A stretch of 41,424 nucleotides of DNA. Source: a virus. A program made the position numbers and the translations under genes. The notes below the pieces were generated by a model. The model was not told where the DNA came from, did not search any database, and was given only the letters and a program-made list of their open reading frames with translations. The stretch is from IMG/VR virus record IMGVR_UViG_3300050821_003342, positions 1-41,424 of that record. The stretch is one strand, 5' to 3'. Each line of letters opens with the position of its first letter. Position 1 is the stretch's first letter. Of this stretch, positions 13,329 through 30,875 are shown one piece after another.

Positions 13329-13429
13329 CGCCGGTCGACGAGTGGGAGGACTACGACGTCGAGGCCCCCGACGATCCCGACGCCTTCCGCGACATGCTCG
13401 ACGACCCGGCGCGCGAGGACTTCGCGTGA
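13325..13429 (+). CDS. Very small acidic protein (34 aa)
   Basis: ATG 13325 overlaps the KTSC gene stop (ATGA) and its own TGA overlaps the GTG of terL (GTGA). The product, MTPVDEWEDYDVEAPDDPDA followed by FRDMLDDPAREDFA, is very acidic. The double overlap suggests it is translated and couples expression of the large terminase. Function unknown. Confidence 0.55.
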   Translation: MTPVDEWEDYDVEAPDDPDAFRDMLDDPAREDFA

Positions 13430-15393
13430 CCACCGCGCGCGAACAGGTCCTGTTCCGGCTCGCCGACAACCTGTTGCTGGCGCACCAGACGCTGTTCGCC
13501 CACCGGCACCCGCAGGACACCCCCGAATTCCACTGGAGCATGATCGCGGACTTTCACAGCCCGCACCCCCGCATCGCGACGCAGGCGTTCCGCGGCGCGG
13601 CAAAATCCTCGATCGGCGAGGAGGGCATCGTCATCGCGGCCGGCTACCGCATGTTCCGCAACTGCCTGATCCTCGGCGACACCGAGGACCGCGCGATCGA
13701 CCGCCTGCGCGCCGTCAAGCACGAGTTCGAGACCAACGAAGGGCTGGAGGCGCTGTTCGGCAAGATGGTCGGCCCGGTGTGGCAGCAGACCAAGATCGTG
13801 CTCTCGAACGGGGTGGTGATCCAGGCTTACGGCCGCGACCAGGCGCTGCGCGGATGCAAGCACAACGACATCCGGCCGGACTTCTGTTTCGGCGACGACA
13901 TCGAGAACGAGGAGTCCTGCGGCGACGAGACCAAGATCGCCAAGACGATGAAATGGCTGCTCGCCGTCGTCATCCCGGCGCTCGACATCAACCACCGCAT
14001 CCGCATCAACGGCACCCCGCTGCACCCGCGCGCGATGATCTGCCAGATCGCCGAGGACAAGACGTGGCTGCGCCGCGACTACCCGATCGAGTATGTGGAC
14101 GCGGCCGGCGAGCGGCGATCGATGTGGCCGGCGCGCTATCCGCTCAAGTGGATCGACGAGAAGCGCGAGAGCTACGAGCGGCACGGCTATTTCAACCACT
14201 TCGCGCAGGAGTACCTGTGCAAGGCCGAGGACCCGCAGTCGAAGGTCTTCACCAAGAACATGTTCGTCGTCGAGCCGACCGTGCGGACGTGGCACCCGAC
14301 CTACGCCATGTTCGATCCGGCGCGCACCAAGAAGGACACCAGCGCCAGCACGGGCCTTGCGGTGTGGTCCTGGATCAACCGCCGCATGATCGTGTGGGAG
14401 GCACGCGCGCTGCTCGCCATGCCGGACGAGATCGTCACCGAGATATTCCGGGTCGACAACGACTACCAGCCGATCGTCACCGGGGTGGAGGTGGACGGGC
14501 TGGAGGAATTCCTGATGCAGCCGCTGCGCCAGGAGCAGGTCCGGCGCGGCTATGCGGTGCCGATCCGGCCGATGCGCGCGCCGCGCGGCAAGATCGACTT
14601 CATCAAGGGGCTGCAGCCGTTCTTCAAGGCGAAGGAAATCATCCTCGCCAAGAACTGCCCGGACCTCGTGGCGCAGTTCATGAGCTTCCCGAACGGCCGC
14701 ATCGACGTGCCGAACGCGCTCGCCTACGCGCTCATGCTGCGGCCCGGCCAGCCGATCTACGACGGCTTCCAGGCGCAGCACGTCGTCGAAGAGCTGCCGG
14801 TGGTGGCGCGGCATCCCTGCTATCTGGTGGTCAACGCGACCGGCGGCTGCACCACCGCGGCGCTGCTGCAGATGGTCGACGGCGGGCTTCTCGTGCTGGC
14901 CGACTGGGCGCGCGAGGGCGACCCTGGGTCCAACCTCGACACCATCGTCCGCGAGGCATCGCTGGCCGCACACGGCAAGCCGAAACTGTTCGCGCCACCG
15001 CGGCATTTCACGGCCTACGACCTGATCGGCCTGCGGGCGGCGGCGCGTGCGGTCCCGGTCGAGCTCGGCCGCGGCGGGCAGGAGCATGCCGGCCGGGAGG
15101 AAATCCGCTCGCTGCTCGGCCGGCTCACCCGCGGGCGCCCGATGGTGCAGGTCTCCACCACCGCGCGCTGGACGCTCAACGCGCTCTCCGGCGGCTACTG
15201 CCGCGAGATCACGCGCAGCGGCCAGCTCACCGACCAGGCGATCGAGGGGCCATACCGCACGCTCATGGAAGGCATCGAGGCGCTCGCGTCGCTGACCAAG
15301 TCGATCACGCTGCGCGAGGACGACGACATCCATTACGACTACACGCCGGACGGACGGCGGTTCATCTCATCGAGGGTGGCGGGGCATGGCTGA
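13426..15393 (+). CDS. terL: Terminase large subunit (655 aa)
   Basis: ATP-driven DNA packaging motor and nuclease. Start at GTG 13426 overlapping the previous stop. Walker A-like RGAAKSS (residues 56-62), Walker B FCFGDDIENEE (153-163), coupling motif NGTP (195-198), nuclease acids Asp297 (MFDPARTKKD), Glu355/Asp357 (VEVDGLEEF) and Asp427 (GRIDVPNALAYAL). Residues 465-655 form an extra C-terminal domain beginning YLVVNATGGCTTAALLQMVD, which resembles a second, degenerate RNase H-like nuclease fold. Most TerL proteins end soon after the third Asp. Small terminase is not identified with confidence. Confidence 0.92.
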   Translation: MTTAREQVLFRLADNLLLAHQTLFAHRHPQDTPEFHWSMIADFHSPHPRIATQAFRGAAKSSIGEEGIVIAAGYRMFRNCLILGDTEDRAIDRLRAVKHEFETNEGLEALFGKMVGPVWQQTKIVLSNGVVIQAYGRDQALRGCKHNDIRPDFCFGDDIENEESCGDETKIAKTMKWLLAVVIPALDINHRIRINGTPLHPRAMICQIAEDKTWLRRDYPIEYVDAAGERRSMWPARYPLKWIDEKRESYERHGYFNHFAQEYLCKAEDPQSKVFTKNMFVVEPTVRTWHPTYAMFDPARTKKDTSASTGLAVWSWINRRMIVWEARALLAMPDEIVTEIFRVDNDYQPIVTGVEVDGLEEFLMQPLRQEQVRRGYAVPIRPMRAPRGKIDFIKGLQPFFKAKEIILAKNCPDLVAQFMSFPNGRIDVPNALAYALMLRPGQPIYDGFQAQHVVEELPVVARHPCYLVVNATGGCTTAALLQMVDGGLLVLADWAREGDPGSNLDTIVREASLAAHGKPKLFAPPRHFTAYDLIGLRAAARAVPVELGRGGQEHAGREEIRSLLGRLTRGRPMVQVSTTARWTLNALSGGYCREITRSGQLTDQAIEGPYRTLMEGIEALASLTKSITLREDDDIHYDYTPDGRRFISSRVAGHG

Positions 15394-17548
15394 CGAATTC
15401 GCACGCGAGCCCGAGACGGAGGAGCCCGAGCGCGGCGACAAGCGCAGCCGCGACCTATCGCGCATCAAGTCGATCAAGGACGACCTGCTGAAAATCTTCA
15501 CCGAGGTCGAGGAGGGATTCCGCGACCAGTGGAACCGGGCCAATGACCAGCTCGACTACTGGGACATCGTCAATTCCAAGCTGACGTCGAAGCAGTTCTA
15601 CTCGGGGAATTCCCGCATTTTCGTCCCGATCGTCAAGAACGCCGTCGAGGCGCGCAAAACCCGTTTCACCAACCAGATTTTCCCGCAGTCGGGCCGCTAC
15701 GTCGAATGCACCTCGTCGGACGGCACGCGCCCCGACGCGATCACGGCGCTGCTCGAACACTATGTCCGCAAGGCGAAGCTGCGCACGCAAGTCATGCCGG
15801 CGCTGGTGCGGGCCGGCGACGTGACCGGGCAGTACAACGTCTACGTCTCATGGTCGAAGACCAAGCGCCACGTCACATGGCGCTCGCGCCAGCGCCCCGA
15901 GATCGACGAGGGCATCCCCAACCCGGCGGCCGAGGAGGTCGACGACATCCAGGAGGAGACCGTCGAGAGCGCGCATCCGATGGTCGAGGTCATCGCCGAC
16001 AGCGACATCCTGGTCCTGCCGCAGACCGTCGACTCGCTGGAGGAGGCCATCGCCGAGGGCGGGTCGGTCACGATCCTGCGCCGCTGGAGCAAGGCGAAGA
16101 TCAAGCAGATGGCGCGCGAGGGCGTGATCCGAAAGGATTTGGCCGACGACCTGATCGAGCAGATGGCGAAGAAATCGCCGCCCGAGGTCGTCAACGCCGA
16201 CAAGAAGATGGTCGACGCCGCCGGCATCAAGGGCGACGGCAAGAAGCATCTTCTGGCCTACGAGACGTTCACGATCCTGGAGGTCAAGGGCGAGCGCCGG
16301 CTGTGCCAGGCGTTCTACGGCGGCGAGCAGAAGATTCTCGGCGCCCGGATCAATCCCTTGTGGTGCGACAAATTGCCACTACTATCCGTGCCTGTGGAAA
16401 AGGTCGCGGGCGCCTTCAAAGGCCGGTCGAAGATCGAAGCTTGCGCCGACCTCCAGTACGCCGCGAACGACGCGATCAACATGGGCTGGGATTCGGCCGC
16501 CTACGCCCTGCTGCCGATCGTGATGACCGACCCGGAGAAGAACCCGCGCGTCGGCTCGATGGTGCTCTCGATGGCGGCGGTGTGGGAGACCAGCCCGAAA
16601 GACACCCAGTTCGCCACCATGCCGCCGGTGTTCGAGAAGGCGTTCGAGCTCGTCAACTCGTGCAAGGCCGAGGTGTCGCAGACGCTCTCCGTCTCGCCGG
16701 CTGCGATCACGCAGGGCGTCTCGGCAAGCGCGAAGGGCAAGCCGAACCAGGCGATGGTGGCGCAGGAGCAGCAGATCGACATCCTCACCACGGCCGACGC
16801 CGTGACGGTGATCGAGGAGGGCGTGCTGACTCCGATGCTCAATCTGTTCCTCGAACTCGACCATCAGTACCGCGACAAGGAGATCACGGTGCGCCAGTTC
16901 GGCGAGATGGGGCTGCGCGCCGGCATGGAGGAAATCCCGCCGGTGCAGATGGATCAGCGCTACGTCTTTCGCTGGTTCGGGGTGGAGCAGGCGCGCAGCG
17001 CGCAGCAGATACAGCAGCAGATCGCCGGCATGAACGTGATCCGGGGCATCCCGCCGCAGCAGCTCAACGGCTATCAGGTCAACCTCGTGCCGGTCATCAC
17101 GCAGCTCGTGGAGAACACGTTCGGACCACGGCTCGCACCGCTGATCTTCGTCTCGCCGGAGCAGCAGATGCCGGTCCCGGTCGAGCAGGAGAACATGCTG
17201 CTCGGCGAGGGTTTCGAGGTCCCCACGCACCAGATGGACGACGACAAGGCGCACATCCAGGCGCACATGCAGGCGCTCCAGGCGATGCAGGCGCAAGGGG
17301 AGGGCAAGAATGCGAAGAAATTCCAAGCCCACATCTGGCGCCACATGCAGCAAGGGCAGGCCAAGCAGCAGGCTGCGATGCAGGCGCAACAGGGGGCGCA
17401 GGGCGTTCCCGGCGGCGCGGGTCCGGGTGTTGCCGGGACGCCTCGACAAGGCGCCCAGCCCGGACAGCCCCGCGCCCAAGGTCCCGCCGGCATGATCCAC
17501 CAGGACCAGATGCGCGACCCGCGCGTGATGCCGCGGAAAGTCGGGTGA
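15386..17548 (+). CDS. Portal protein (720 aa)
   Basis: Long podovirus-type portal, overlapping terL by 8 bp. Order terL-portal, length (720 aa; P22 gp1 is 725) and content support this. Residues 20-110 hold the typical start (RIKSIKDDLLKIFTEVEEGF, RDQWNRANDQLDYW, NSRIFVPIVKNAVEARKTRF). The middle has YAANDAINMGWDS and the crown/wing region; the last 120 residues form a Gln/Ala-rich helical barrel candidate (HIQAHMQALQAMQAQ, QGQAKQQAAMQAQQ) followed by a Gly/Pro tail. A long C-terminal helical barrel reaching into the head is known in P22. Confidence 0.88.
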   Translation: MADEFAREPETEEPERGDKRSRDLSRIKSIKDDLLKIFTEVEEGFRDQWNRANDQLDYWDIVNSKLTSKQFYSGNSRIFVPIVKNAVEARKTRFTNQIFPQSGRYVECTSSDGTRPDAITALLEHYVRKAKLRTQVMPALVRAGDVTGQYNVYVSWSKTKRHVTWRSRQRPEIDEGIPNPAAEEVDDIQEETVESAHPMVEVIADSDILVLPQTVDSLEEAIAEGGSVTILRRWSKAKIKQMAREGVIRKDLADDLIEQMAKKSPPEVVNADKKMVDAAGIKGDGKKHLLAYETFTILEVKGERRLCQAFYGGEQKILGARINPLWCDKLPLLSVPVEKVAGAFKGRSKIEACADLQYAANDAINMGWDSAAYALLPIVMTDPEKNPRVGSMVLSMAAVWETSPKDTQFATMPPVFEKAFELVNSCKAEVSQTLSVSPAAITQGVSASAKGKPNQAMVAQEQQIDILTTADAVTVIEEGVLTPMLNLFLELDHQYRDKEITVRQFGEMGLRAGMEEIPPVQMDQRYVFRWFGVEQARSAQQIQQQIAGMNVIRGIPPQQLNGYQVNLVPVITQLVENTFGPRLAPLIFVSPEQQMPVPVEQENMLLGEGFEVPTHQMDDDKAHIQAHMQALQAMQAQGEGKNAKKFQAHIWRHMQQGQAKQQAAMQAQQGAQGVPGGAGPGVAGTPRQGAQPGQPRAQGPAGMIHQDQMRDPRVMPRKVG

Positions 17549-17583
17549 ATTGAGAGATTGGTTTAAGCATCTGTCTGAACGCG

Positions 17584-17611
17584 TTGCAATCTAACGTAAT
17601 TTGTTTATCAT
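17584..17611 (+). promoter_or_regulatory. Candidate promoter of the lysis/envelope cassette
   Basis: -35 TTGCAA (17584-17589), 16-bp spacer, -10 TATCAT (17606-17611), in the 87-bp AT-richer gap after the portal gene. The transcript start would fall inside the palindrome at 17613-17627. Confidence 0.5.
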
Positions 17612-17612
17612 G

Positions 17613-17627
17613 CCCTGAAATTCAGGG
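17613..17627. promoter_or_regulatory. Palindrome at predicted transcription start
   Basis: CCCTGAA-A-TTCAGGG, a perfect 7-bp inverted repeat around one base, directly after the -10 box and overlapping the AGGGG ribosome site of the gene at 17636. It could be an operator or, in RNA, a weak structure masking the ribosome site. Confidence 0.5.
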
Positions 17628-17635
17628 GTGATGCC

Positions 17636-17833
17636 ATGACGTACAGAACGGCATTGTTTGCAACGTGGCTTGCGCTCGGCGCCGGCGTCATCGGGTACGC
17701 ATTTGCGACCGTTCAGGCGCCCAACACGCTTGCGGGCTGCCAATACAACGCGACCCCGCCGACCCTGACTGACGGCCAGCTCGTCACCCTGCAGTGCGAT
17801 TCGAGCGGCAACCTCAAGACGAAGGCGCAGTGA
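17636..17833 (+). CDS. Small secreted or membrane-anchored protein (65 aa)
   Basis: N-terminal hydrophobic segment (residues 6-24, ALFATWLALGAGVIGYAFA) works as a signal peptide or anchor with a possible cut after AFA. The mature part NTLAGCQYNATPPTLTDGQL, then LQCDSSGNLKTKAQ, resembles short phage structural proteins with TPPTLTDGQ and CDSSGNLK motifs, which often sit near fibres. It is coupled to the endolysin gene by a TGATG overlap. Confidence 0.65.
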   Translation: MTYRTALFATWLALGAGVIGYAFATVQAPNTLAGCQYNATPPTLTDGQLVTLQCDSSGNLKTKAQ

Positions 17834-18669
17834 TGAGCGCGTCCTTCGCGGCCCTCGCCCCGGAATACAACGCGCTCCTGGCGCGCATGGTGATCACGCG
17901 GGAGGCTGAGGTCGAGGCCGTCGCGAACAAGCTGCTGCATTTCGTCGACGAAGGCCGCTACGCGCCGGTGTCGGCCGAGGTTGGCGTGCCGCAGGTGTGG
18001 ATGGCGACGAGTTTCGAGCGCGAGGCGTCGTCAAACTTCAACGACAGCCCGGCGCAGGGCGATCCGTGGGCGCACCGATCGGTGCATGTACCGGCCGGGC
18101 GCGGGCCGTTCCCGTCATGGGCGGCCGCCGCAATCGACGCCTACCACATCGACGGCCTCGACAAGGTCGGCGCCGACAACTGGACCTGGCCGCGCGCCTG
18201 CTACGAGGGCGAGGTGTTCAACGGCATGGGCTACCGCGCCCACGGCATCCATTCGCCGTATCTATGGGCCGGCACGAACAACTACACCTCGGGCAAGTAC
18301 GTCGCGGATGGCGTGTGGTCGGCCGGCGCGATCGATCAGCAGCTCGGCATCGTGCCGGTGATGTTCCGCATGATCGCGCTGCGGCCGGCTCTCGCGCTGG
18401 TGGGGTCCGTCCCGCCGATCGCCGTGACGCCGATGCCTGATCCGCAGCCGGCGCCCGATGGCCTTGGGCAGCACGGCGCCCACGACACCGCTTGGCTGCA
18501 GCACGCGCTTAACGTCCTGAAGGTCGACGGCACGCCGCTCGTCGAGGACGGCAGCTACGGCCGGCGCACGCGCTTCGCCGTCATCGCGTTCCAGACTACG
18601 CACGGGCTCGAGCCTGATGGCATCGCCGGCCCGCTCACCACCGCAGCAATCGAGAAGGCCATCGGCTGA
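17833..18669 (+). CDS. Endolysin with C-terminal peptidoglycan-binding domain (278 aa)
   Basis: Degrades murein at the end of infection. Residues 1-190 form a lysozyme-like catalytic domain with SFEREASSNFN (60-70; probable catalytic Glu), GDPWAHRSVHVPAGRGPFPS, WTWPRACYEGEVFNGMGYRA and HSPYLWAGTNNY. Residues 213-278 are a PG_binding_1 domain (DTAWLQHALNVLKVDG, DGSYGRRTRFAVIAFQ, DGIAGPLTTAAIEKA), joined by a Pro-rich linker. It has no signal peptide, so export would need a holin. Catalytic family is not certain; the residues resemble muramidases in alphaproteobacterial phages. Confidence 0.85.
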   Translation: MSASFAALAPEYNALLARMVITREAEVEAVANKLLHFVDEGRYAPVSAEVGVPQVWMATSFEREASSNFNDSPAQGDPWAHRSVHVPAGRGPFPSWAAAAIDAYHIDGLDKVGADNWTWPRACYEGEVFNGMGYRAHGIHSPYLWAGTNNYTSGKYVADGVWSAGAIDQQLGIVPVMFRMIALRPALALVGSVPPIAVTPMPDPQPAPDGLGQHGAHDTAWLQHALNVLKVDGTPLVEDGSYGRRTRFAVIAFQTTHGLEPDGIAGPLTTAAIEKAIG

Positions 18670-18678
18670 AAGGGCGCC

Positions 18679-18918
18679 ATGCAGATCGATCCGAAAGTCT
18701 CGATGTACCTCAATATCGGCTCGCTGATCCTCAGCGTGTTCGCGATGGCCGGATGGTGGGGCGATCTGGTCGGCAATCATCTGGCGGCGACGATCACCGG
18801 CATCATGTTCACGACCGTCAGCGCGGCCAATGTTGTGCTGCATGCCTATTCGCCGCCGACCGCCGGCCCGGCCAACTCTCTGGCCCCGGCGTCAGCGCCG
18901 GCTGCCAAAGTCGGATAA
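18679..18918 (+). CDS. Holin candidate, two-TM protein (79 aa)
   Basis: Directly downstream of the endolysin. Two hydrophobic segments (residues 14-32, IGSLILSVFAMAGWWGDLVG, and 33-52, LAATITGIMFTTVSAANVVL) fit a class II-type holin; the tail is Ala/Pro-rich and polar. Size (79 aa) and location support a role in forming membrane holes for endolysin release. Sequence family not recognised. Confidence 0.65.
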   Translation: MQIDPKVSMYLNIGSLILSVFAMAGWWGDLVGNHLAATITGIMFTTVSAANVVLHAYSPPTAGPANSLAPASAPAAKVG

Positions 18919-18960
18919 ATCTTGCGTGTGTCTTCCCGGCAACAACCTTCAGGGGGAAAT

Positions 18961-18988
18961 AGGACTACACTCCTAGGTGTAAAGTCCT
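18961..18988 (+). promoter_or_regulatory. Hairpin before the outer-membrane protein gene
   Basis: AGGACTACAC (18961-18970) pairs with GTGT (18977-18980) and, past a two-base bulge, AGTCCT (18983-18988), giving a 10-bp stem and 6-base loop. It ends 6 bp before the GGAGGGTGG ribosome site. Could attenuate read-through from the lysis genes or stabilise the message. Confidence 0.45.
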
Positions 18989-19005
18989 AACACGGAGGGT
19001 GGAAT

Positions 19006-19713
19006 ATGAAGAAATTCCTATGCATCGCGGCACTCGCCGCACTGTGCGTCCCGGCCGCGGCTGCCGATCTGCAGCTCAAGGCACCGGCGTTGACGGCGCA
19101 ATTCCCGACGACGATGTCGGGCGCCTATTACGGCCTCTACACGGCGCTCGCCGCCGGCCAGGCCGAGGTGAAGAACATCCCGGCCGGCATCAATGCGGCC
19201 TCGCTCACCACGACGCAGGGCGAGATCGGCGGCGTGGTCGGTTATCGGTGGGCGAGCGCCAACGCGGCGCGCTTCGTCGATGCCGAATGCGACATCGGCG
19301 CCATGAACCTCAACGGCAACACGGCTGGCCTGAGTGCGGGCGGCCCAATGGTCGTCGAGTGCGGCGTGCGGGCCGGCGTGCCAATGGCGGCGTTCGCGTC
19401 GCTATTCCCGAACCTCGGCCTGCCGAATTTCCCGACGCTGCCGATCCCGACTGGCGTGTCTCAGCTCTCGACGCAGATGTACGTCGGCGGCGCAGTGCGG
19501 TTCGAGGACATCTCGCCGAACTTCGGCGCCACGAGCAACTCGGCATGGGCGATCTCGCCCGCGCTGTGGGTCGGCATGCTGCAGATGCTCTCGAACGGTA
19601 CGGCGCTTGACGGGCGGATCGAGTACATCTTCGCGTCCGACAAGTGCATCGGGCCGGTGGCCTGCATGCAGATGGACCACCGCGTCATGGCGAAGATCGG
19701 AATGCTGTTCTGA
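19006..19713 (+). CDS. Secreted outer-membrane-type protein (235 aa)
   Basis: Begins MKKFLCIAALAALCVPAAAA, a clear Sec signal peptide with cleavage expected after about residue 20; the mature start ADLQLKAPALTAQFP resembles rhizobial porin-like outer membrane proteins. The rest alternates aromatic and small residues in beta-strand fashion (GAYYGLYTALAAGQAEV, GGVVGYRWASANAARF, MYVGGAVRFEDI, RIEYIFASDKCIG) and ends in Leu-Phe, as outer-membrane barrels commonly end in Phe. GGAGGGTGG is an excellent ribosome site. It could be a lysogenic-conversion surface protein or receptor blocker (inference). Confidence 0.7.
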   Translation: MKKFLCIAALAALCVPAAAADLQLKAPALTAQFPTTMSGAYYGLYTALAAGQAEVKNIPAGINAASLTTTQGEIGGVVGYRWASANAARFVDAECDIGAMNLNGNTAGLSAGGPMVVECGVRAGVPMAAFASLFPNLGLPNFPTLPIPTGVSQLSTQMYVGGAVRFEDISPNFGATSNSAWAISPALWVGMLQMLSNGTALDGRIEYIFASDKCIGPVACMQMDHRVMAKIGMLF

Positions 19714-19752
19714 TCGCGTTGGGGAGGGGAGCGCGTAGCGTGCAGTAGCGTA

Positions 19753-19789
19753 GCGGGCTGGCACCTGAGTGGCCTCGGTGCCGGCCCGC
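19753..19789 (+). terminator. Strong GC hairpin, candidate terminator
   Basis: GCGGGCTGGCACC (19753-19765) pairs with GGTGCCGGCCCGC (19777-19789): 13 pairs with one G-U wobble and an 11-base loop. There is no U-run, so an intrinsic terminator is not certain; a second bulged stem follows at about 19811-19838. Together they fill the gap after the outer-membrane protein gene. Confidence 0.5.
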
Positions 19790-19926
19790 AGCGTCTCACA
19801 GGTGCGGCACAGCCCAGCCGGTTGGACGACCGGGCTGCGCCTGACCAGCACGACGGAGCGCCGCCGCGATGGCTGCAATCAGCATACGCAATCTGTACTT
19901 AAGCGGATGTGAAGGTGATCACACTC

Positions 19927-20292
19927 ATGGGCACCCTCGTGGCCGGTAAGCTCGACGAGATCAGCGAGGCAATCGGGGGATTGCGTGCGAGCACCGCGGG
20001 GCTTGAACGTGCATTTTCCGAACACTGCCGGGACGACGACCGCCGCCATGAGGAGAACATCGCAGTACAGCGCGAGGCGAACGAGAGCATCCGCAAGCTG
20101 ACCGAGGTCGTAACGCCGCTAGCCAATGCGGTAGGGGCCATGAAGCCGATCGTCGACCAATATCAGGCATCGCGCTTCAAGCTGGTCGGTGCCGCGAGCG
20201 TCATCATGATGCTGTTCGGCTTCATCGGCTGGCTGATCCAGACCTTCATCACCTCGATCATTCACGGGGTATGGAAGCTGCTGCAGGGGTGA
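19927..20292 (+). CDS. Coiled-coil protein with C-terminal TM (121 aa)
   Basis: I prefer ATG 19927, with GAAGGTG 9 bp upstream, over GTG 19909. Residues 1-80 form an amphipathic coiled coil (KLDEISEAIGGLRASTAGLE, RRHEENIAVQREANESIRKL); residues 88-115 are hydrophobic (LVGAASVIMMLFGFIGWLIQ). Topology suggests an inner-membrane-anchored coil, like a spanin subunit or phage holin accessory; a DUF1515-like match is possible. It is followed by another coil-plus-TM protein 3 bp downstream. Confidence 0.6.
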   Translation: MGTLVAGKLDEISEAIGGLRASTAGLERAFSEHCRDDDRRHEENIAVQREANESIRKLTEVVTPLANAVGAMKPIVDQYQASRFKLVGAASVIMMLFGFIGWLIQTFITSIIHGVWKLLQG

Positions 20293-20295
20293 GCC

Positions 20296-20733
20296 GTGGC
20301 GGGCAAGAAGGGCTGGACGCTCTGGACGCTCAAGGAATTTCTTGAGGACAAGATCGTCCAAGGCGAAGCGCGAACGGCCGAACGCTTCGCCCTCTCCAAG
20401 CTGGCCGTCGATGCCGCGCTCGCCGCCGCCGAGAAGGCCATCACCGCAGCAATGGCTGCGGCCGAGAAGGCGGTCACGAAAGCCGAGGTTGCCGCAGAAA
20501 AACGCTTCGACTCGGTGAACGAATTCCGCAACGCGATGAAGGACCAGCAGTCGACCTTCGCCGACAAGGCGCAGACCGACTTCCGCCTAGCCGCGCTTGA
20601 GAAGCGGGACGAGGTGTCTGGTGGCCGCTCGACCGGGCGCAACGATGTCCTGGGATGGATCGTTGCCGCCGTTCTCTTCGTCGCGGCTGTCGCGTCTCCC
20701 GTGCTTACCATCATGGCGATGCGTGGCCACTGA
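20296..20733 (+). CDS. Ala-rich coiled-coil membrane protein (145 aa)
   Basis: Starts at GTG 20296. Residues 15-100 are a highly helical repeat-like stretch (AVDAALAAAEKAITAAMAAA, EKAVTKAEVAAEKRFDSVNE, FRNAMKDQQSTFADKAQ), a pattern common in phage membrane proteins across several hosts (AVTKAEVAxEKRFxSVNEFR). Residues 117-140 form a TM segment (VLGWIVAAVLFVAAVASPVL) near the C-terminus. Function in other phages is not settled; position beside endolysin suggests a role in lysis or envelope interaction. Confidence 0.7.
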   Translation: MAGKKGWTLWTLKEFLEDKIVQGEARTAERFALSKLAVDAALAAAEKAITAAMAAAEKAVTKAEVAAEKRFDSVNEFRNAMKDQQSTFADKAQTDFRLAALEKRDEVSGGRSTGRNDVLGWIVAAVLFVAAVASPVLTIMAMRGH

Positions 20734-20822
20734 CATGGCCGGCACCAGCTCGGTAGGGAACTTTTCCTATCCACGAGATGTTGTGGTCATGCCCGTAAAT
20801 TCCGTGGGCGGGGACTACATCC

Positions 20823-21038
20823 ATGATCCCTCTCGCCGTATCGATCTTGTGGCTGCTGATCGGCGTAATCATTCTCGGTGCGGTCATTTACATCGCGCTC
20901 CGCGTCATCCGGCGGTTTTTCCCTTCGATGGACCCCAACGTCGATTATGCGGTGTGGGCGATCTTCGCCATCCTGATCCTGATTTACGTGCTGACATCCT
21001 TGATGGGTGGAGGCGCCAGCTTTCACTTCCCCCGATAG
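20823..21038 (+). CDS. Thivi_2564-like membrane protein (71 aa)
   Basis: Two strongly hydrophobic segments: residues 2-24 (IPLAVSILWLLIGVIILGAV) and 42-62 (YAVWAIFAILILIYVLTSLM), joined by a basic loop RVIRRFFPSMDPNVD. The arrangement resembles the Thivi_2564 family of small membrane proteins found in phages and bacteria. Could be a second holin or antiholin. Confidence 0.6.
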   Translation: MIPLAVSILWLLIGVIILGAVIYIALRVIRRFFPSMDPNVDYAVWAIFAILILIYVLTSLMGGGASFHFPR

Positions 21039-21113
21039 CCAAGTCGAGCCGCTCCAGCCTTATCCACCGGCACCGCCCTCGATCTGCAGGGGATGCTGAG
21101 AATTTGCCGTGTC

Positions 21114-21142
21114 TTGACGGACTTATCCCTAACAGTTAATCT
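21114..21142 (+). promoter_or_regulatory. Strong promoter for scaffold/capsid genes
   Basis: -35 TTGACG (21114-21119), 17-bp spacer, -10 TAATCT (21137-21142). This is the best sigma70-like promoter in the late region, and the predicted start (about 21149-21150) falls at the first unit of the triple repeat that forms the leader. Confidence 0.65.
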
Positions 21143-21149
21143 GAAACAT

Positions 21150-21218
21150 CGACTGGCGACCGTAAGTCGCTGAAACGACTTGCCCCCGTAAGGGGATTTC
21201 GACTGGTGGCCGTAAGTC
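21150..21218 (+). repeat. Three tandem CGACT/CCGTAAG leader repeats
   Basis: Units start at 21150, 21176 and 21200, spaced 26 and 24 bp. Each has CGACT, five bases, then CCGTAAG. Units 1 and 3 can fold on CGACT/AGTCG (unit 3 lacks the last G) with GG/CC inside; unit 2 folds through CCCC-GTAA-GGGG. They would make up nearly all of the 5' leader of the scaffold-capsid message, ending 4 bp before its AGGAG ribosome site. Confidence 0.65.
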
Positions 21219-21231
21219 ACAGGAGCGGAAA

Positions 21232-21969
21232 ATGGCGGGTGAAGGCGATGACGAGGAAGTCGTCACAGGGACCGAAAGTGAAGACGCCGCCGGGTCGGAC
21301 GCCCCAGAGCGGGACGACGACAGCGAAGTATCCGCCGAACACGCTGACGACCAAGAAGACGATGGGCAACCGGAAGTAGACGCCGAACCGGCTGCAAAGC
21401 CGGGGCGGGCCGAGAGCCGAATCCAGCGTCTGGCGAACGAAGCCAAGGCGGCGCGCGAGGAAGCGGCAGCCGCACGGCGAGAGGCAGAGGAAGCAAAGCG
21501 CGCTGCATGGCAGCGGCAGGATCGAGATTCGAGGGAAGTCCACGAAGCGCGTCGCGCGCTGATGACCCCCGAGGAGAGAAACGCAGACGACATGGCGCAG
21601 ATGCGGCGCGAATTCGCGCAGCAGCGTCACCAGGATCAGATGACCACCGCGGCCTTGATGGACAAGACCGCATACGACGCGAAGGCAACGATCAACCCGG
21701 TCTACGCGAAGTTCAAAGGCGAGGTGGAGGACAGGTTTCAGGAGCAGTTGCGCAAGGGCCAGCCGGTCGAGCGCGAGATCATCCTGAAGGTTCTTCTCGG
21801 CGAACGCGCTCTTGAGGGGGCGGGCAAGTCGGGACCAGCGAGGCGGCAGGCCAGTCGGCGGGTCGAATCGCAGCGGGTAGCGCCGGGGAGCGGCAGGGGG
21901 GATGCCCCCTCCAATCGCGGCAAGGCGGGAGACACCGCCGAGAGTCGGTTGAAGGACGTGATTATCTAG
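21232..21969 (+). CDS. Scaffold protein (245 aa)
   Basis: Directly upstream of the capsid gene. The N-terminal 60 residues are very acidic (DDEEVVTGTESEDAAGSDAP); residues 60-125 are a charged coiled coil (RIQRLANEAKAAREEAAAAR, REAEEAKRAAWQRQDRDSRE); the C-terminus is basic (RRQASRRVESQRV) and ends AESRLKDVII. Acidic N-terminus, central coil and basic capsid-binding tail are the usual plan of phage scaffolds. It would assemble the procapsid and leave before packaging. Confidence 0.8.
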   Translation: MAGEGDDEEVVTGTESEDAAGSDAPERDDDSEVSAEHADDQEDDGQPEVDAEPAAKPGRAESRIQRLANEAKAAREEAAAARREAEEAKRAAWQRQDRDSREVHEARRALMTPEERNADDMAQMRREFAQQRHQDQMTTAALMDKTAYDAKATINPVYAKFKGEVEDRFQEQLRKGQPVEREIILKVLLGERALEGAGKSGPARRQASRRVESQRVAPGSGRGDAPSNRGKAGDTAESRLKDVII

Positions 21970-22010
21970 CGGCGGCCCACCGGCCCCCGCGTTGACGCAC
22001 GAGGGCTAGA

Positions 22011-23372
22011 ATGGCTGTCAATCAGGCTTCGCAATTTTCGAGCGATATCGTTGCCTACATCGCCGAGAAAACCCTTCCCCTCACCCGCAAGCAATTGGTC
22101 GCCTACCAGTTCGGCGATCCGCTGACCCTCCCGAAAGGTCGAGGGACCACCTACACGGCCACCCGCTATCTGCGCATCCCGCTGCCGCTCTCGCCGCTCT
22201 CCGAAGGCGTTCCTCCGATCGGCGAGACGATGACGATCCAGCAGGTCTCGGCCGTCGCGCAGCAGTGGGGCGACAAGGTGACGATCACCGACGTCGCCGA
22301 GATGACGATCTACCATCCGCTGTTTCAGAAGGCGACCGAACTGGTCGGCCTGCAGGTCGCGGAAACGCTGGAGCGCAACACCTTCAACACGCTCAACTCC
22401 GGCACGCAGATCAACTACGTCAATTCGCGCGGCGCGCGTGCTTCGCTCGTTGCCGGCGACGTGCTCAGCCCGTTCGAGGTCCAGCGCTCCTACTCGATGA
22501 TGTTCAACCTCGGCGCCCCTCGCTTCATGGGCGACGAGATGACCGACACCAAGCTCGAAGCCGACGCGGGCGGGGCGAAGGCGTCGAAGAATCCGCGGCA
22601 GATGCCGCACTACACCTCGATCATCCACCCATTCGTCGCCGCCGACCTGCGCCAGAATTCCCAGGTGCAGACCGCGTGGTCCTACTCGGACATCAACCGC
22701 CTCTACAATTTCGAGGCCGGCGAGTTCAACGGCATCCGGTTCTGCGAATCGAACATGGTGCCGTTCTGGACCGGCATCGCGAACAACTCGGCGGGCCTGA
22801 CCTACACGCCGGGCGCGGCGGGCAATCTCGCGACCGGGACCTACTACATCGAGGTCACCGGCTCCGACACGCAGAACCAGTTCGAGAGCCAAATCTACCA
22901 GATTTCGGCGTCGCAGTCGGTCACCGGCCCGAACGGATCGATCTCGGTCAAACTGCCGTCGACCACCGGATTCACCTACAACGTCTACATCTCGACGTCC
23001 GCAACGATGGCGAGCTCGAACCTCGGCCTGACCGCATCAGGCCCGACCGTTGGTCCGCTCGCGGGTCAGGCGGTGCAGCTCGCGGCCGGATCGACCGTCA
23101 TCATCACCGGCACCGGCGCTGCGCAGCAGCCACCGGCGGCGCCCGCAACGGGTGTCACGGTCTATCCGACCTTCGTCATCGCCCGCGGCGCCTACGGTCA
23201 GGTCATGCTCGACGACGTGAAGTTCACGTACCTCAAGGAGGCCGACAAGTCCGACCCGCTGAACCAGCTTCGCGTGGTCGGGTGGAAGACCATGTACGGC
23301 ACCCTGATCGAGAACAACCAGTTCTTCATGCGCATCGAGTCCGTCTCGGCCTTCTCGGCGACCTTCGGCTGA
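22011..23372 (+). CDS. Major capsid protein, N4-gp56 family (453 aa)
   Basis: HK97-fold shell protein. The start MAVNQASQFSSDIVAYIAEK, then TLPLTRKQLVAYQFGDP, KGRGTTYTATRYLRIP, EGVPPIGETMTIQQVS and QWGDKVTITDVAEMTIYHP are typical of N4-gp56-type capsid proteins. Residues about 260-385 look inserted: NSAGLTYTPGAAGNLATGTY, NVYISTSATMASSNLGL, with FN3/Ig-like beta strands, before the fold resumes at YPTFVIARGAYGQVMLDDVK. The insert likely projects on the capsid surface. The phage otherwise lacks N4 hallmarks such as a virion RNA polymerase. Confidence 0.88.
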   Translation: MAVNQASQFSSDIVAYIAEKTLPLTRKQLVAYQFGDPLTLPKGRGTTYTATRYLRIPLPLSPLSEGVPPIGETMTIQQVSAVAQQWGDKVTITDVAEMTIYHPLFQKATELVGLQVAETLERNTFNTLNSGTQINYVNSRGARASLVAGDVLSPFEVQRSYSMMFNLGAPRFMGDEMTDTKLEADAGGAKASKNPRQMPHYTSIIHPFVAADLRQNSQVQTAWSYSDINRLYNFEAGEFNGIRFCESNMVPFWTGIANNSAGLTYTPGAAGNLATGTYYIEVTGSDTQNQFESQIYQISASQSVTGPNGSISVKLPSTTGFTYNVYISTSATMASSNLGLTASGPTVGPLAGQAVQLAAGSTVIITGTGAAQQPPAAPATGVTVYPTFVIARGAYGQVMLDDVKFTYLKEADKSDPLNQLRVVGWKTMYGTLIENNQFFMRIESVSAFSATFG

Positions 23373-23384
23373 TCGGGGTACACG

Positions 23385-23681
23385 ATGGCGACGGGAACGC
23401 TCGGCACTGCGGCGACGACCACGTTGACGTCGCTCAATCCGTGGACCGCCTCGACGGCTCCGGCCGACGTGGCGTCCATCGGGATTGCGATCCTCAACGA
23501 TCTGAACGTCAACCATCCGATCTTTCCGGGCGCCTTCGCGCAGAACGGCCTGCTCTACGTCCCCAACAGGGGCGTTCTGCGGGTGCTGCCCGGCGACTAT
23601 GTGGGCGTGGACCCGAACGGGTGGCCCATCCTGGTGTCGAAGAATTCGATTGCCGGCTCTGGCTGGTCGCACTCACCCTGA
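23385..23681 (+). CDS. Capsid-associated protein, decoration candidate (98 aa)
   Basis: Thr/Ala-rich start (TGTLGTAATTTLTSLNPW) followed by a compact beta domain with HPIFPGAFAQNGLLYVPNRG and VLRVLPGDYVGVDPNGWP. Small beta-rich proteins immediately after capsid genes are often decoration or stabilising proteins; this assignment rests on position and composition. Twelve bp after the capsid gene. Confidence 0.6.
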   Translation: MATGTLGTAATTTLTSLNPWTASTAPADVASIGIAILNDLNVNHPIFPGAFAQNGLLYVPNRGVLRVLPGDYVGVDPNGWPILVSKNSIAGSGWSHSP

Positions 23682-23690
23682 GGACGCAAC

Positions 23691-24146
23691 ATGGCAAAGA
23701 AGTCTCTTTTTGCATCAGATCAGCCGCCGCTCGATGCCGAGCTTCTGACCGAGACCGAAGTTCAGGAGCTTTCCGCCGAAGTGCAGGCGGAAGTCGATGA
23801 GGAACGCAGGGAAGCCGCGCGCAAGTCCCTCAAGGAGAAGCTGCGCAAGGAAGCCCGCCAGAAGCAGGGCCTCGCCGAGGCGCAGGAGAGCGTAACGATC
23901 GACCTCGCGCCGTATGCGGATCGGCTGCTGATCGACAACGTCGCCTATCTCCAGGGCATGACCTACACGGTTCCGACGAGCCGCGCTGCGGTGTTGCGCG
24001 AGCAGATGCAACGGACGTGGGGACATCAGTCGATCATCGACGGCAAATCCGAGAACTTCTACCGCAAGTCCCGCGGCGCTCGGGTCATCCCGGTCGGCGA
24101 GAACGGCGCGGCCGTGACCACCAGCAGCAGCCTCCTGAGGGCATGA
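23691..24146 (+). CDS. Head-region structural protein (151 aa)
   Basis: N-terminal half is a charged helix (EVQELSAEVQAEVDEERREA, KSLKEKLRKEARQKQGLAEA), C-terminal half (VTIDLAPYADRLLIDNVAYL, QGMTYTVPTSRAAVLREQMQ, RTWGHQSIIDGKSENFYRKS) is a conserved-looking beta segment. The pattern YLQGMTYTVP is seen in other phages with this capsid type. Probably a head completion or minor head protein. Confidence 0.6.
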   Translation: MAKKSLFASDQPPLDAELLTETEVQELSAEVQAEVDEERREAARKSLKEKLRKEARQKQGLAEAQESVTIDLAPYADRLLIDNVAYLQGMTYTVPTSRAAVLREQMQRTWGHQSIIDGKSENFYRKSRGARVIPVGENGAAVTTSSSLLRA

Positions 24147-24147
24147 C

Positions 24148-24570
24148 ATGGACGAGATCGAGAAAGTCCCGTCGATCGGCATTTCCTACACGGTCGAGCT
24201 TCCCGGCAAGAAAGCGCTGGTGATGCAGTCCTTCGTCGGCCGCGACGATCCGCCGAAGTTGCTCAACGACGTGCTCGACAAGATCAGGGTCGCGTCGGAG
24301 CGGCAGTTTGCTTTCGGCGCCATCCAGCAGCTCAAGCTGCAGCTCGAACAGGAGCAGAAGATCGCTTCCGACCATGCGGCGCGGCTCGCCCAGGTCGATG
24401 AGAACATCAAGCGCGAATGGACGAACGGAGGCCGGCGCGGCGAGATCAAGCTGTCGCAGAAGCAGCAGCAGGATCAGCAGCAGGCCTACGCGCACGCCGA
24501 GGAATGCAAGAAGCGCATCGACAAGGTGCGCAAGGACATCGCCGAATACGAGGCCATGATCGGGGCGTGA
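24148..24570 (+). CDS. Coiled-coil structural protein (140 aa)
   Basis: Begins one base after the previous stop. Residues 1-45 are a beta region (SIGISYTVELPGKKALVMQS); residues 47-137 are coiled coil (QLKLQLEQEQKIASDHAARL, QQQDQQQAYAHAEECKKRID). Likely a minor virion or assembly protein. No family recognised. Confidence 0.55.
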   Translation: MDEIEKVPSIGISYTVELPGKKALVMQSFVGRDDPPKLLNDVLDKIRVASERQFAFGAIQQLKLQLEQEQKIASDHAARLAQVDENIKREWTNGGRRGEIKLSQKQQQDQQQAYAHAEECKKRIDKVRKDIAEYEAMIGA

Positions 24571-24574
24571 GGGT

Positions 24575-25318
24575 GTGGCACTCACCGCAGCACAGATTAT
24601 CACGCTGTCTTGCCAGATGGCGAAGTGCCCAGGCTTCACAGCCCAGGCATTGCAGTTCCTGAACGCGATCCTTCAGGAACTCGCGCAGGACTACGATTTC
24701 AACGTAATCCGCAAGACCTTCACGTTCAATTTCTCGACCAGCGCGAACGGCAACGGGTATGCGGCCGGGTCCGGCCCAAACCTGATGCCGGCCGATTTTC
24801 TGCGGCTGCACCGGAACGGCTCGTTCTATTTCATCGTCCAGGTGCCGTACAAACTGATCGGCGTCACGCAGGAAGAATTCGACACGTTCGTTCAGCAGCC
24901 GGGCCTGCAGTCGTATCCCTATCTCGCCTACGTGGACGTGACGCAAGTCGCGGGCCAGCAGCCCGGACTCTACGTGTGGCCGCCTGCATCGGGGGCCTAT
25001 CCGGCGACCATCCGTTACAACCCGCAAATGCCGGACATCACGGACACGTCCACGACGCCGTGGTTTCCGAACTCGAACTATCTCTACACGCGGCTTGCCG
25101 GAGAGCTGATGAAGATCAGCAACGACGACCGCTGGCAAGAGTTCTTGGGCGATTCCGATCCCGACAAGGACAAGGCCGGCAGCGCGGCATCGATTCTGCG
25201 CGCGTACCTCAAGATGAAGGACGACCCGGAGACGGCGGTTAAGACCGTCGAGCTCGACCGCCGTCTGTTCAAGCCCAACATCGCCAACGTCCGCAACACA
25301 AAAATGATCGGGTGGTGA
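24575..25318 (+). CDS. Head-tail connector/adaptor protein (247 aa)
   Basis: GTG start at 24575 (VALTAAQIITLSCQM). The helical start with ITLSCQMAKCPGF and FLNAILQELAQDYDF, followed by a beta domain (FTFNFSTSANGNGYAAGSGP, PADFLRLHRNGSFY, PYLAYVDVTQ, YVWPPASGAYPATIRYNPQM) and the C-terminal helices with DDRWQEFLGDSDPDKDKAGS and MKDDPETAVKTVELDRRLF, correspond to gp4/gp11-like tail-adaptor proteins of podoviruses that bind below the portal. Position after head genes fits. Confidence 0.72.
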   Translation: MALTAAQIITLSCQMAKCPGFTAQALQFLNAILQELAQDYDFNVIRKTFTFNFSTSANGNGYAAGSGPNLMPADFLRLHRNGSFYFIVQVPYKLIGVTQEEFDTFVQQPGLQSYPYLAYVDVTQVAGQQPGLYVWPPASGAYPATIRYNPQMPDITDTSTTPWFPNSNYLYTRLAGELMKISNDDRWQEFLGDSDPDKDKAGSAASILRAYLKMKDDPETAVKTVELDRRLFKPNIANVRNTKMIGW

Positions 25319-25320
25319 CC

Positions 25321-25518
25321 ATGCATCCCATGGAAAAGATCATCATCCTGATGACGGCCTGCCAAGTTCTTCAGATGATTTACACGCTGCGTCGCGTTCA
25401 CGCCTCTCATCAGGGAATCCGATACGTGATCGAGATGGCGCCGCTCGTCCTGTGCGTTGTTGCGCTCGTCGTTCTTGTCTCTCGAATCTTCAATCTGATC
25501 CCTTACGTCGGGATATGA
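25321..25518 (+). CDS. Small membrane protein (65 aa)
   Basis: ATG 25321. Two hydrophobic stretches, IIILMTACQVLQMIYTLR (about 6-23) and MAPLVLCVVALVVLVSRIFN (about 40-59), with a basic, His-containing loop between (RRVHASHQGIRY). Lies within the structural cluster rather than the lysis cassette, so it may be an additional holin or a virion-associated membrane protein. A GTG start 9 bp upstream is possible. Confidence 0.5.
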   Translation: MHPMEKIIILMTACQVLQMIYTLRRVHASHQGIRYVIEMAPLVLCVVALVVLVSRIFNLIPYVGI

Positions 25519-25522
25519 CGCG

Positions 25523-27721
25523 ATGAAACGAATACTCATAGCGCTCGGCTTTCTGGCATCCCTGATTTCGGGATCGGCTGCGCAGCAGACCAAGTCGCAG
25601 CTCAACACCGAGGTCTCGACCAACTATCCCGACAACACTACGGGCCTGATTACGCCGTCAATTCTCCGATCAACTACGAATGACCTGATTGCGTCCTGGC
25701 AGCAGGGCACTAGGGTAAATGCGCAGACCGGAACGACCTACACGTTCGTCGTCGGAGATTACGGAAATCTGGTCACCTTCAACAATGTCGGCGCAATTGC
25801 TGCATCCCTTCCGCAGGCGACCGGGTCATTCGCGACGTTCAACGTCTACGTCAAGAATCTGGGCGCCGGAACGGTCACCATCACGCCGACCACGTCGACG
25901 ATTAATGGGGCGTCGTCTTACGCGCTGACGACAGGGGTCGGGGCTCAGATCATTTCAGACGGTGTGAATTATCAAGTCTGGACCGGCGCTCCATCACCTC
26001 CGTGGTCGCCGCAAATCCATCAGGACGGCGGCTGCGCGAATCACGGTCACGTTCTGGCGTGGAGCGACTGCAACTTTGATCTGGCGGTTGATTTCATCAA
26101 CGCCGCGAGTGCGGACGCCTCGCAAATCTATCAGTATTCAATCACGGGCTCGATCACCGGCGGAAACACGCCGACGTTCAGGTTTGTGATTGGCGGCGTC
26201 AACCACGATGTCGTCTACACGGTGCAGGGCGGCGACACCACGACGACGATCGCCACTGCGTTCGCGGCCTGCATCAACGGCGGATCGACCAACTGCACGG
26301 GCGGTCCCGGCCTGATCTCCGCGATGGCGGCGTTTCTCGGCAGCGACGGTATCGGATATCGACCCAGCGCGGGTAGCAGCACGAATTCGGTGTTTTTCGA
26401 TTTCCCGTGGGCCGCGTCGGGCAACTCGATCTCGATCCTGACGCCCGGCACTCTCACGATCACCAAGACGAGCACCGATCTTCTCGATATCGGGCCGCTC
26501 TACAAGTGTGGTCGCAATGTCCCTGGCCGAACACCGACCTTGGGCGATGAACTTTGCACTTGGCAGGTGTCCGGTCAATCCGGTCCCAACACCGGATATG
26601 ACAGCACATTCGGGGCGATGACCGTCAACTATATGGGCGGGTCTGCGGGGTCAGCAAGCGCACGAATAGCTCTAGGCGCGGTGTCCGCCGGGACTAACGC
26701 GCATAGCACTCTCTTTGTCGGTCCGAAGGGTGTCTACACGTCGGACACGGACGGCAGCAGCAATCCTTGCAATGCCTTCACAGGCATTATCGGCGATCCT
26801 GGTTTCGGAGCGTTTTCCGCGTGCGGGCAGATTTTCGCGGGGATGCACAACTATTCCGGCGAGACTGTCGGCAACCTCGCGATGATCGAAAGCTCCGGCT
26901 TCTTGCGGGTGCGAGGAAACGCGCAGCAGCCATCGTCCGGCCAGGGCATCGAGATTTTCATGGATAACGGAGCCTCGCCGCAGGCGGGGACGATCCGCGC
27001 CTACAACGCCGGAACCACGGCATTTACGCCGCTGCATCTTGGTGCGCAGCCTCTGATGGTCGACAAGACGCTCACGGTCGGCCTGCCGAATCTGACGACG
27101 AACGACAGCATCATCAACGCGAACCTCAATGCGGCAGTGCCGCCAGCGAACCCGACCACGGGTGCTCATCTGTCCTTGCTGGATGCGACGGTGGGCGGCT
27201 TCAACGTGGATGCCTTCGCGCAAAATGGGCAGAACCTTTTCCGCCGTGCGAACGGAACGAACGCCAGCCCCACAGGTCTGGTTGACGGCGATACGATCGG
27301 TGGCCTTCGTTGGGATGGATTCGCTGGGGCCAGCACGAACGCATATGTGGGAGGAAAGGCATTTCTGCTTGTCGTGGCTTCGGGCACTTGGAGCAACACG
27401 AATAACGCGACAAATATGAAGGTGCTTCTCGTCGCGCCGAGCACGACCGGCGTAGCAGAGACGGCGCGTTTCTGGGGATCAGGCTCATTCAATGCGACTT
27501 CTTCGCCGACCGATGCCGGAGCAGGTTCGGTGGTGATGAAGCAGAACACCACGAACAAGGGCGCGACCATCACGGCGACAGCTCCGGGAGCCGCGAACGG
27601 ATCGCTTGTGTTCGGATGCGGCACCAACGCGGGAACGGCAGCTCTGTTCGCTGGCTCAGGAACATCGACGACGCTGACGCGGGTTCTCGACAACATCGGC
27701 TCAGGGGTGACGGGATGTTAA
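25523..27721 (+). CDS. Tail fibre/spike protein with signal peptide (732 aa)
   Basis: Large beta-rich fibre. The first 20 residues (MKRILIALGFLASLISGSAA) have all features of a Sec signal peptide. Next comes an attachment-like segment (LNTEVSTNYPDNTTGLITPS), then long Thr/Ser/Gly-rich strands (NVYVKNLGAGTVTITPTTST, GGNTPTFRFVIGGVNHDVVY), and a C-terminal shaft-like region (PSTTGVAETARFWGSGSF, NTTNKGATITATAPGAANGS). Likely binds host surface polysaccharide or an outer-membrane receptor; no enzymatic motif is visible. A signal peptide on a fibre is unusual (see findings). Confidence 0.7.
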   Translation: MKRILIALGFLASLISGSAAQQTKSQLNTEVSTNYPDNTTGLITPSILRSTTNDLIASWQQGTRVNAQTGTTYTFVVGDYGNLVTFNNVGAIAASLPQATGSFATFNVYVKNLGAGTVTITPTTSTINGASSYALTTGVGAQIISDGVNYQVWTGAPSPPWSPQIHQDGGCANHGHVLAWSDCNFDLAVDFINAASADASQIYQYSITGSITGGNTPTFRFVIGGVNHDVVYTVQGGDTTTTIATAFAACINGGSTNCTGGPGLISAMAAFLGSDGIGYRPSAGSSTNSVFFDFPWAASGNSISILTPGTLTITKTSTDLLDIGPLYKCGRNVPGRTPTLGDELCTWQVSGQSGPNTGYDSTFGAMTVNYMGGSAGSASARIALGAVSAGTNAHSTLFVGPKGVYTSDTDGSSNPCNAFTGIIGDPGFGAFSACGQIFAGMHNYSGETVGNLAMIESSGFLRVRGNAQQPSSGQGIEIFMDNGASPQAGTIRAYNAGTTAFTPLHLGAQPLMVDKTLTVGLPNLTTNDSIINANLNAAVPPANPTTGAHLSLLDATVGGFNVDAFAQNGQNLFRRANGTNASPTGLVDGDTIGGLRWDGFAGASTNAYVGGKAFLLVVASGTWSNTNNATNMKVLLVAPSTTGVAETARFWGSGSFNATSSPTDAGAGSVVMKQNTTNKGATITATAPGAANGSLVFGCGTNAGTAALFAGSGTSTTLTRVLDNIGSGVTGC

Positions 27722-30727: not shown

Positions 30728-30819
30728 AGGAAGGCGTCGCGCCTAACCGCGCGGACGAAGGCCCACCCGAGGAGAAGAACGACCGTAGCCGCGAGGGATA
30801 AGGCAAAAATCCAGCCCAT
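30724..30819 (-). CDS. Putative 31-aa membrane peptide, antisense orientation
   Basis: On the minus strand ATG 30819 to TAG 30724 encodes MGWIFALSLAATVVLLLGWA then FVRAVRRDAFL: one clean membrane helix with a basic C-terminus. Its stop shares the CTAG tetramer with the stop of the collar-fibre gene, so the two genes end face to face. It is the only minus-strand candidate in the late region; the ribosome site is weak. Confidence 0.35.
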   Translation of the reverse strand: MGWIFALSLAATVVLLLGWAFVRAVRRDAFL

Positions 30820-30840
30820 GGCTGGAAGCCTATTCCGGCT

Positions 30841-30862: not shown

Positions 30863-30875
30863 CGAGTGTCATGTC

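Follow-up and report, generated by a model that had tools for sequence, protein, structure and literature searches.

Why would a temperate phage carry a gene for an outer-membrane-type protein among its lysis genes, and what would the protein do there? The question is raised by a 41,424-base IMG/VR virus record (hereafter the window, meaning the whole stretch of DNA analyzed), in which a protein designated P0001 is encoded between the endolysin and capsid genes (Table 1). On its minus strand, the window has genes for an integrase and a RecT-like protein; terminase and capsid genes are also present, with tail genes beyond the capsid gene, so it is most likely a temperate tailed phage.

The terminase–portal–capsid backbone (13342-23372) has no close cultured relative. 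When 50,697 phage records were searched, the product that we take to be the portal protein had just two relatives, both weak; its close relatives are uncultured contigs. Paenibacillus phages were among the named matches of the capsid protein. Capsid matches to Paenibacillus phages were likewise reported in 2026 for Sinorhizobium phage AP-20-A (PMC13299392). An 11,473-base stretch of another contig (L092), which starts past the barrel gene, is 100% identical to window positions 20897-32369.

Table 1. Coordinates of the barrel gene and of the features around it.
Feature	Coordinates	Strand	Basis or remark
Terminase large subunit	13342-15393		
Portal-type protein, anchor for related loci	15386..17548	+	Name from place and size
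65-aa secreted-type protein, CxYNxTPPTLS-like motif	17636..17833	+	Similar to small proteins of related phages
Endolysin, C-terminal peptidoglycan-binding domain	17833..18669	+	PG_binding_1 E 8e-12; PHROG endolysin E 4.5e-10
Holin candidate, 79 aa	18679..18918	+	Size, hydrophobicity, place
Inverted repeat/RNA hairpin ahead of ribosome site	18960..18989	+	12 pairs, 2-nt bulge
Shine-Dalgarno-like GGAGGG, 6 nt before ATG	18994..18999	+	Direct reading
P0001, predicted outer-membrane eight-stranded beta-barrel protein, 235 aa	19006..19713	+	ATG start; AlphaFold2 model, fold matches, profile comparison
Predicted Sec signal peptide, residues 1-19, then mature Ala-Asp N-terminus	19006..19062	+	Pattern only
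Uncharged Pro-rich insert, residues 127-152, between strands 4 and 5	19384..19461	+	AlphaFold2 model, alignments
Strong G+C-rich inverted repeat 3' of gene	19753..19789	+	No T run, not scored as terminator
127-aa protein, coiled-coil-like stretch and C-terminal membrane segment	19909..20292	+	
Major capsid protein, second anchor for related loci	22011..23372	+	

The barrel gene and the predicted fold

P0001 begins with a Sec-type N-terminus, MKKFLCIAALAALCVPAAA, followed by a predicted mature start ADLQLKAP, both recognized by pattern only, and its last residue is Phe. When given a 13-sequence alignment, AlphaFold2 produced a model with eight long strands (residues 39-50, 73-83, 90-100, 115-126, 153-168, 181-195, 200-208 and 226-234; pLDDT 71.8, pTM 0.65); the model made with no alignment was of low confidence (pLDDT 35.8). 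The solved structures that best matched the alignment-based model were OprF (Z 14.9), NspA (Z 14.1) and OmpA (Z 13.2), and the Foldseek matches included Ail/OmpX and entries of uncultured phages named "outer membrane protein" in BFVD. The original prediction, made from the letters alone, had named a signal peptide, a beta-strand pattern and a C-terminal Phe, all of which were recovered here together with a barrel model that matches known outer-membrane barrels. P0001 is thus predicted to be an eight-stranded outer-membrane barrel and probably sits in the host outer membrane.

By the strand-parity rule, under which both ends of the barrel are periplasmic, the insert between strands 4 and 5 should face the periplasm. 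It was found in all seven members of the subfamily to which P0001 belongs, with 25-29 residues, 4-6 prolines and no charged residue, and host proteins have a gap at its place in the profile alignments. Strong conservation of the insert was considered and rejected: its character is kept, but its identity of 0.40 is not above that of the strands. Among the loops, extracellular loop 2 is the best conserved in the subfamily, with a mean pairwise identity of 0.65.

The strong ribosome site that had been described after a 10-bp hairpin is present. The hairpin comprises 12 pairs with a bulge and is just modestly above chance (−15.7 kcal/mol, z −2.14), since 6 of 200 shuffled sequences folded equally well. 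No promoter-like site was found near the gene by a simple scan for the sigma-70 type, and no T-run terminator was seen in a scan at the gene. The gene is separated by gaps of 87 nt from its upstream and 195 nt from its downstream neighbor, and in base composition it resembles the late genes of the phage itself.

Relatives and origin of the barrel

Searched by itself, P0001 gave no match in Pfam (E ≤ 1), including the Lom/Ail family, nor in NCBIfam, PDB sequences, phage and plasmid records, or viral and genome contigs; the best PHROGs hit was at E 0.57, which amounts to nothing. No PF13505 match was found in the window, P0001 scoring below the Pfam gathering threshold, so we regard it as only a distant relative of that family and not as a member. 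A peptide-pattern scan of 84,980 genomes, a weak test, found no relative, and a four-sequence alignment (A4) offered no stretch conserved enough for scanning.

Relatives were found through the backbone. A search of viral contigs with a portal alignment, from which the best 80 of 196 related loci were taken, and capsid scans, from which the best 80 of 369 relatives per scan were taken, supplied the loci. A phmmer search with P0001 against the ORFs of the portal-related loci identified, in the corresponding position, proteins with a signal peptide and a length close to that of P0001, and the capsid scans added L191, a clear relative (phmmer 4.5e-37; mature parts 38% identical, E 1.6e-33). A relative this close to the mature protein, in a similar context, shows that the barrel gene is no chance ORF. 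P0001 and L191 together served as the query of a scan that yielded six more distant relatives on other contigs (L211-L216). All seven came only from uncultured viral contigs, and a search of 72,556 plasmid records turned up no relative of either P0001 or L191. The PF13505 cut-off is passed by four other barrels, L063, L053, L072 and L029, which occupy this position in related phages. Barrels were recognized by phmmer from known barrels and by a rule on signal peptide and C-terminus, and strongly divergent ones may therefore be missed.

A link to bacterial proteins appeared at the profile level. In a profile comparison of the phage barrels with six Hyphomicrobiales outer-membrane proteins, the match was at 95.2% (E 2.7e-8), and at 98.6% (E 6.6e-16) when related phage barrels were added on both sides; a portal profile used as a negative control gave 0.1%. 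When the phage barrel L072 was run against plasmids by tblastn, 48 records matched. The 11 records that were opened belong to Hyphomicrobiales by their taxonomy lines, and the ten genera named in the tally, which leaves three further genera unnamed, are presumably Hyphomicrobiales as well. From these plasmid matches we infer a host among the Hyphomicrobiales (rhizobia and allies). The assignment comes solely through relatives of the barrels, because genome contigs scanned with the portal in search of named hosts yielded a single MAG contig, labeled Eremiobacterota.

The N-terminus is also of a host type. For comparisons between loci we used a set of 21, consisting of the window and 20 related loci; it excludes the partial L091 as well as near-copies and loci on the same contig (L070, L089, L144, L151, L183, L210 and L217-L221). 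A mature Ala-Asp start was found by regular expression in 17 of the 21 proteins, and in 19 with two read by eye; the exceptions are L045 (Gln-Val) and L072 (Thr-Asp). Barrels of Brucella and Agrobacterium are linked to peptidoglycan by ends of this kind, with L,D-transpeptidases making the link in Brucella, and such host barrels anchor the outer membrane to the peptidoglycan (PMC10787603, PMC11527210). By analogy with these host relatives, attachment of P0001 is plausible. The fold, the profile match and the Ala-Asp end all agree with the rhizobial-type barrel that the original prediction had described.

That prediction had also called the gene host-derived and proposed a phylogeny against rhizobial outer-membrane proteins. 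In the tree, P0001 falls in a phage-only branch of 13 rows (support 96/94), and the remaining phage barrels fall near or among the host proteins, which formed a small sample of nine rows picked by similarity to L072, itself a phage barrel. The tree suggests several captures of host genes by phages, as far as a small host sample chosen through L072 can indicate. Host derivation stands as a remote link, but the phage-only branch, the lack of plasmid relatives of P0001 and L191 and the late-gene-like composition speak against anything closer. The best explanation is that P0001 descended from Omp25/Omp31-like proteins of Hyphomicrobiales and has long been resident in phages.

The place in the lysis cassette

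The original prediction had placed the gene downstream of endolysin and holin candidates. The endolysin is backed by family matches; the small product that follows it, which we take to be a holin, had no reliable match in Pfam or PHROGs. The endolysin lies 337 nt upstream of the barrel gene in the window and 269-745 nt upstream in 15 of the 20 related loci (16 of 21 with the window). The misses are L212, L213, L060, L090 and L200, the last of which has just 58 nt of upstream sequence and was scored as a miss. These endolysins belong to different families (Glyco_hydro_108, Glyco_hydro_25, PG_binding and, below cut-off, CHAP-like), and the link between barrel and endolysin therefore survives exchange of the endolysin gene. 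The lysin of L215, which we had presumed to be a GH19 enzyme, has no Pfam match.

Of the 20 loci with a readable upstream neighbor (L200 has none), 5 show a 4-nt overlap between the barrel gene and the small gene before it, and 2 show a gap of 1 nt. Because most loci were picked out through their backbone, the sample is biased with respect to the place of the barrel; of the seven that only barrel homology brought in (L090 and L211-L216), four have an endolysin directly upstream. Relatives of the barrel also occur on contigs where the surroundings differ. Agrobacterium phage Rivra and a prophage on a Pseudochrobactrum plasmid each have a related barrel gene next to a lysozyme gene, on the opposite strand. 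The Rivra barrel, RIVRA_27 (L088:8001-8663), is annotated just as a hypothetical protein, and Rivra is a cultured phage with an integrase. The other barrel (L232:14146-14850; NZ_CP084393.1, plasmid p.QF3) lies beside a GH108 endolysin gene in a prophage with an N4-gp56 type capsid, and places a similar arrangement in a host that is named and cultured. Overall, place, strand and coupling suggest expression late in infection, together with the lysis genes, as the likeliest reading.

Small proteins surround the cassette. The 65-residue product ahead of the endolysin resembles small near-portal proteins of related phages and forms part of a longer protein in L046. A small coiled-coil membrane protein follows the barrel in many loci (window 19909-20292, L214:1939-2235, L072:7196-7459); several of these have a C-terminal LRRG-like motif and an N-out topology by charge. 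The membrane segment in the counterparts of the window protein is mostly near the N-terminus. We considered that this protein and the barrel might form a spanin pair, and rejected the idea as the charge rule places the coil in the cytoplasm in six of eight relatives; one relative had a weak match to an Rz-like PHROG (E 5e-4).

What occupies the stretch between portal and capsid varies across the clade. Our census covered 61 loci with the two genes at least 2 kb apart, forming 56 clusters and drawn from the best 80 of the portal relatives and the best 80 of the capsid relatives per scan. Within this best-80 sample, barrels of several lineages were found in 11 clusters, a lipoprotein in 10, and neither in 35; no cluster had both once a false lipobox in L065 was removed. 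The exclusion was weakly tested (p 0.09, or p 0.30 counting the false lipobox). Mutual exclusion had been proposed from 12 loci of each kind with no overlap among 82, and was dropped when it proved not significant after clustering. The lipoproteins are of several kinds (L021, L030, L033, L041, L042, L046, L050, L051, L066, L120, L154 and L163), with two each in L030 and L033. A match to Cor was seen in two of six scanned lipoproteins (E 0.001-0.002), confined to the signal-peptide end. No ORF of at least 40 aa with a lipobox was found on either strand of the window, by a rule that does detect lipoproteins in the related loci, and the window hence has no o-spanin candidate. P0001 itself, having no lipobox, is neither an o-spanin lipoprotein nor a u-spanin, that is, a lipoprotein with a C-terminal helix.

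Possible functions and known systems

Our tentative preference, held at somewhat less than an even chance, is that P0001 serves late envelope conversion by altering or occupying receptors at the cell surface. The protein would be exported by Sec and inserted in the outer membrane, where host L,D-transpeptidases would probably tie it to peptidoglycan through its Ala-Asp end, as in the host relatives. Judging by gene order, strand and coupling in the relatives, it is probably made late, with the endolysin and holin; neither the infected cell nor its debris would then go on binding progeny or competing phages (superinfection or debris-adsorption exclusion), an effect that T5 Llp and Cor reach by a different route. 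We favor late envelope conversion because the place takes varied barrels or small lipoproteins and because, by analogy, outer-membrane exclusion proteins act in this way elsewhere: T5 Llp and Rtp45 block adsorption to infected cells and to lysed fragments (PMC9586334, PMC12685063). It is consistent with the barrel model and its structural matches, with a profile link to host outer-membrane proteins that the negative control, the portal profile, did not show, with the upstream endolysins of several families, and with the overlap or near-contact to the upstream gene in 7 of 20 loci. Different barrel lineages in one place look like a fixed need filled by a variable barrel, as for surface-directed proteins, and the small lipoproteins found there in other loci of the clade are of the protein class of Llp and Cor. 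Several observations fit less well. T5 Llp is expressed early, unlike lysis genes (PMC9586334). Llp, Cor and Rtp45 are lipoproteins and not barrels, the exclusion between the two kinds is weakly tested with most clusters having neither, and the conserved extracellular loop 2 is unlike a loop under receptor arms-race pressure. The gene in the window is also loosely coupled, given the gaps on both sides.

The main rival is lysogenic conversion, named beside receptor masking in the original prediction, in which the gene is a moron with its own promoter in the lysogen and the barrel alters the lysogen surface, for example by blocking other phages or changing host interactions. It is kept alive by Rivra and the Pseudochrobactrum prophage, whose barrel genes have the classic moron layout, and the integrase of the window phage, the gaps and the hairpins on either side of the gene would suit it as well. 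We nevertheless place it on the unlikely side of possible: the scan for sigma-70 type promoters gave nothing near the gene, the composition is that of late genes, and the strand is shared with late genes, the preceding gene being overlapped or nearly touched in the same 7 of 20 relatives. A gene co-directional with the late genes and set in the lysis cassette suggests late lytic rather than lysogenic expression.

A third account, the boldest and one that we consider unlikely, is that the barrel takes part in lysis itself: tied to peptidoglycan and equipped with the Pro-rich insert, it would loosen or break the outer membrane after the endolysin has acted, replacing a spanin. The constant place across swapped endolysins, the window's want of an o-spanin candidate and the uncharged insert throughout the subfamily would fit, as would the host barrels that hold the outer membrane to the peptidoglycan (PMC10787603, PMC11527210). 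A missing spanin is nothing special, since a survey found none in 91 of 677 phages (PMC6139136) and 35 of the 56 clusters have neither barrel nor lipoprotein, which itself tells against a lysis role. So do the canonical, insert-free barrels that also occupy the place, and the topology of the downstream membrane protein, opposite to that of Rz by the charge rule in 6 of 8 relatives. To our knowledge, no barrel disrupts an outer membrane. Somewhat more doubtful still is a full barrel-type lysis factor, in which the phage's own peptidoglycan-attachable barrel, made with the holin and endolysin, opens the outer membrane spanin-free. The outer membrane of Hyphomicrobiales is riveted to peptidoglycan by Ala-Asp barrels and not by Lpp, and the phage barrel would compete with or replace these rivets, or act through its uncharged, Pro-rich periplasmic insert.

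P0001 might also be a passenger, a copied host outer-membrane protein giving general permeability or envelope support and having no phage-specific task; its ultimate kinship to host proteins and its host-type N-terminus agree with this, but one place kept over large divergence and the phage-only branch make it improbable. A structural protein of the virion, as the place between portal and capsid might suggest, is very improbable given the signal peptide, the barrel fold, the occurrence in just 11 of 56 clusters of the best-80 sample and the relatives on contigs with other surroundings.

Compared with known systems, P0001 shares with the spanins (Rz/Rz1, T1 gp11) a place in the lysis cassette, an outer-membrane component and a Pro-rich periplasmic stretch, but has neither a lipobox nor a membrane-spanning helix in the mature protein, and its neighboring membrane protein has the wrong topology in most relatives. 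Like T5 Llp, Cor and Rtp45 it is a phage-encoded envelope protein, and the effect proposed here on adsorption to infected cells and debris would be similar; those proteins are lipoproteins of the periplasmic face, whereas P0001 is a predicted barrel.

Phage outer-membrane barrels are already known, mostly as isolated conversion genes. Lambda Lom is a phage-encoded outer-membrane barrel of the Ail/Lom family, and P0001 resembles it and the BFVD phage entries in fold, as an eight-stranded barrel of a temperate phage. It differs in having no match to a Pfam barrel family and in sitting in a lysis cassette with co-directional neighbors and not as a separate moron. Among the titles and abstracts listed by our literature search, a listing and not proof of absence, none dealt with a barrel gene in the lysis cassette of such phages. 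If phages of plant-associated bacteria have a recurrent, barrel-swapping place in their lysis cassettes, such barrels would be connected with the end of the lytic cycle, and it would become testable how phages handle an outer membrane held covalently to peptidoglycan by barrels. The Omp25/Omp31-type proteins (PF13505, OMP_b-brl) have in common with P0001 a signal peptide, an Ala-Asp mature end, an eight-stranded barrel and a C-terminal aromatic residue. P0001 is joined to them by the profile match to Hyphomicrobiales proteins and not by PF13505, and is set apart by a 26-residue uncharged, Pro-rich insert where the host proteins have a gap, and by its place in a phage lysis cassette.
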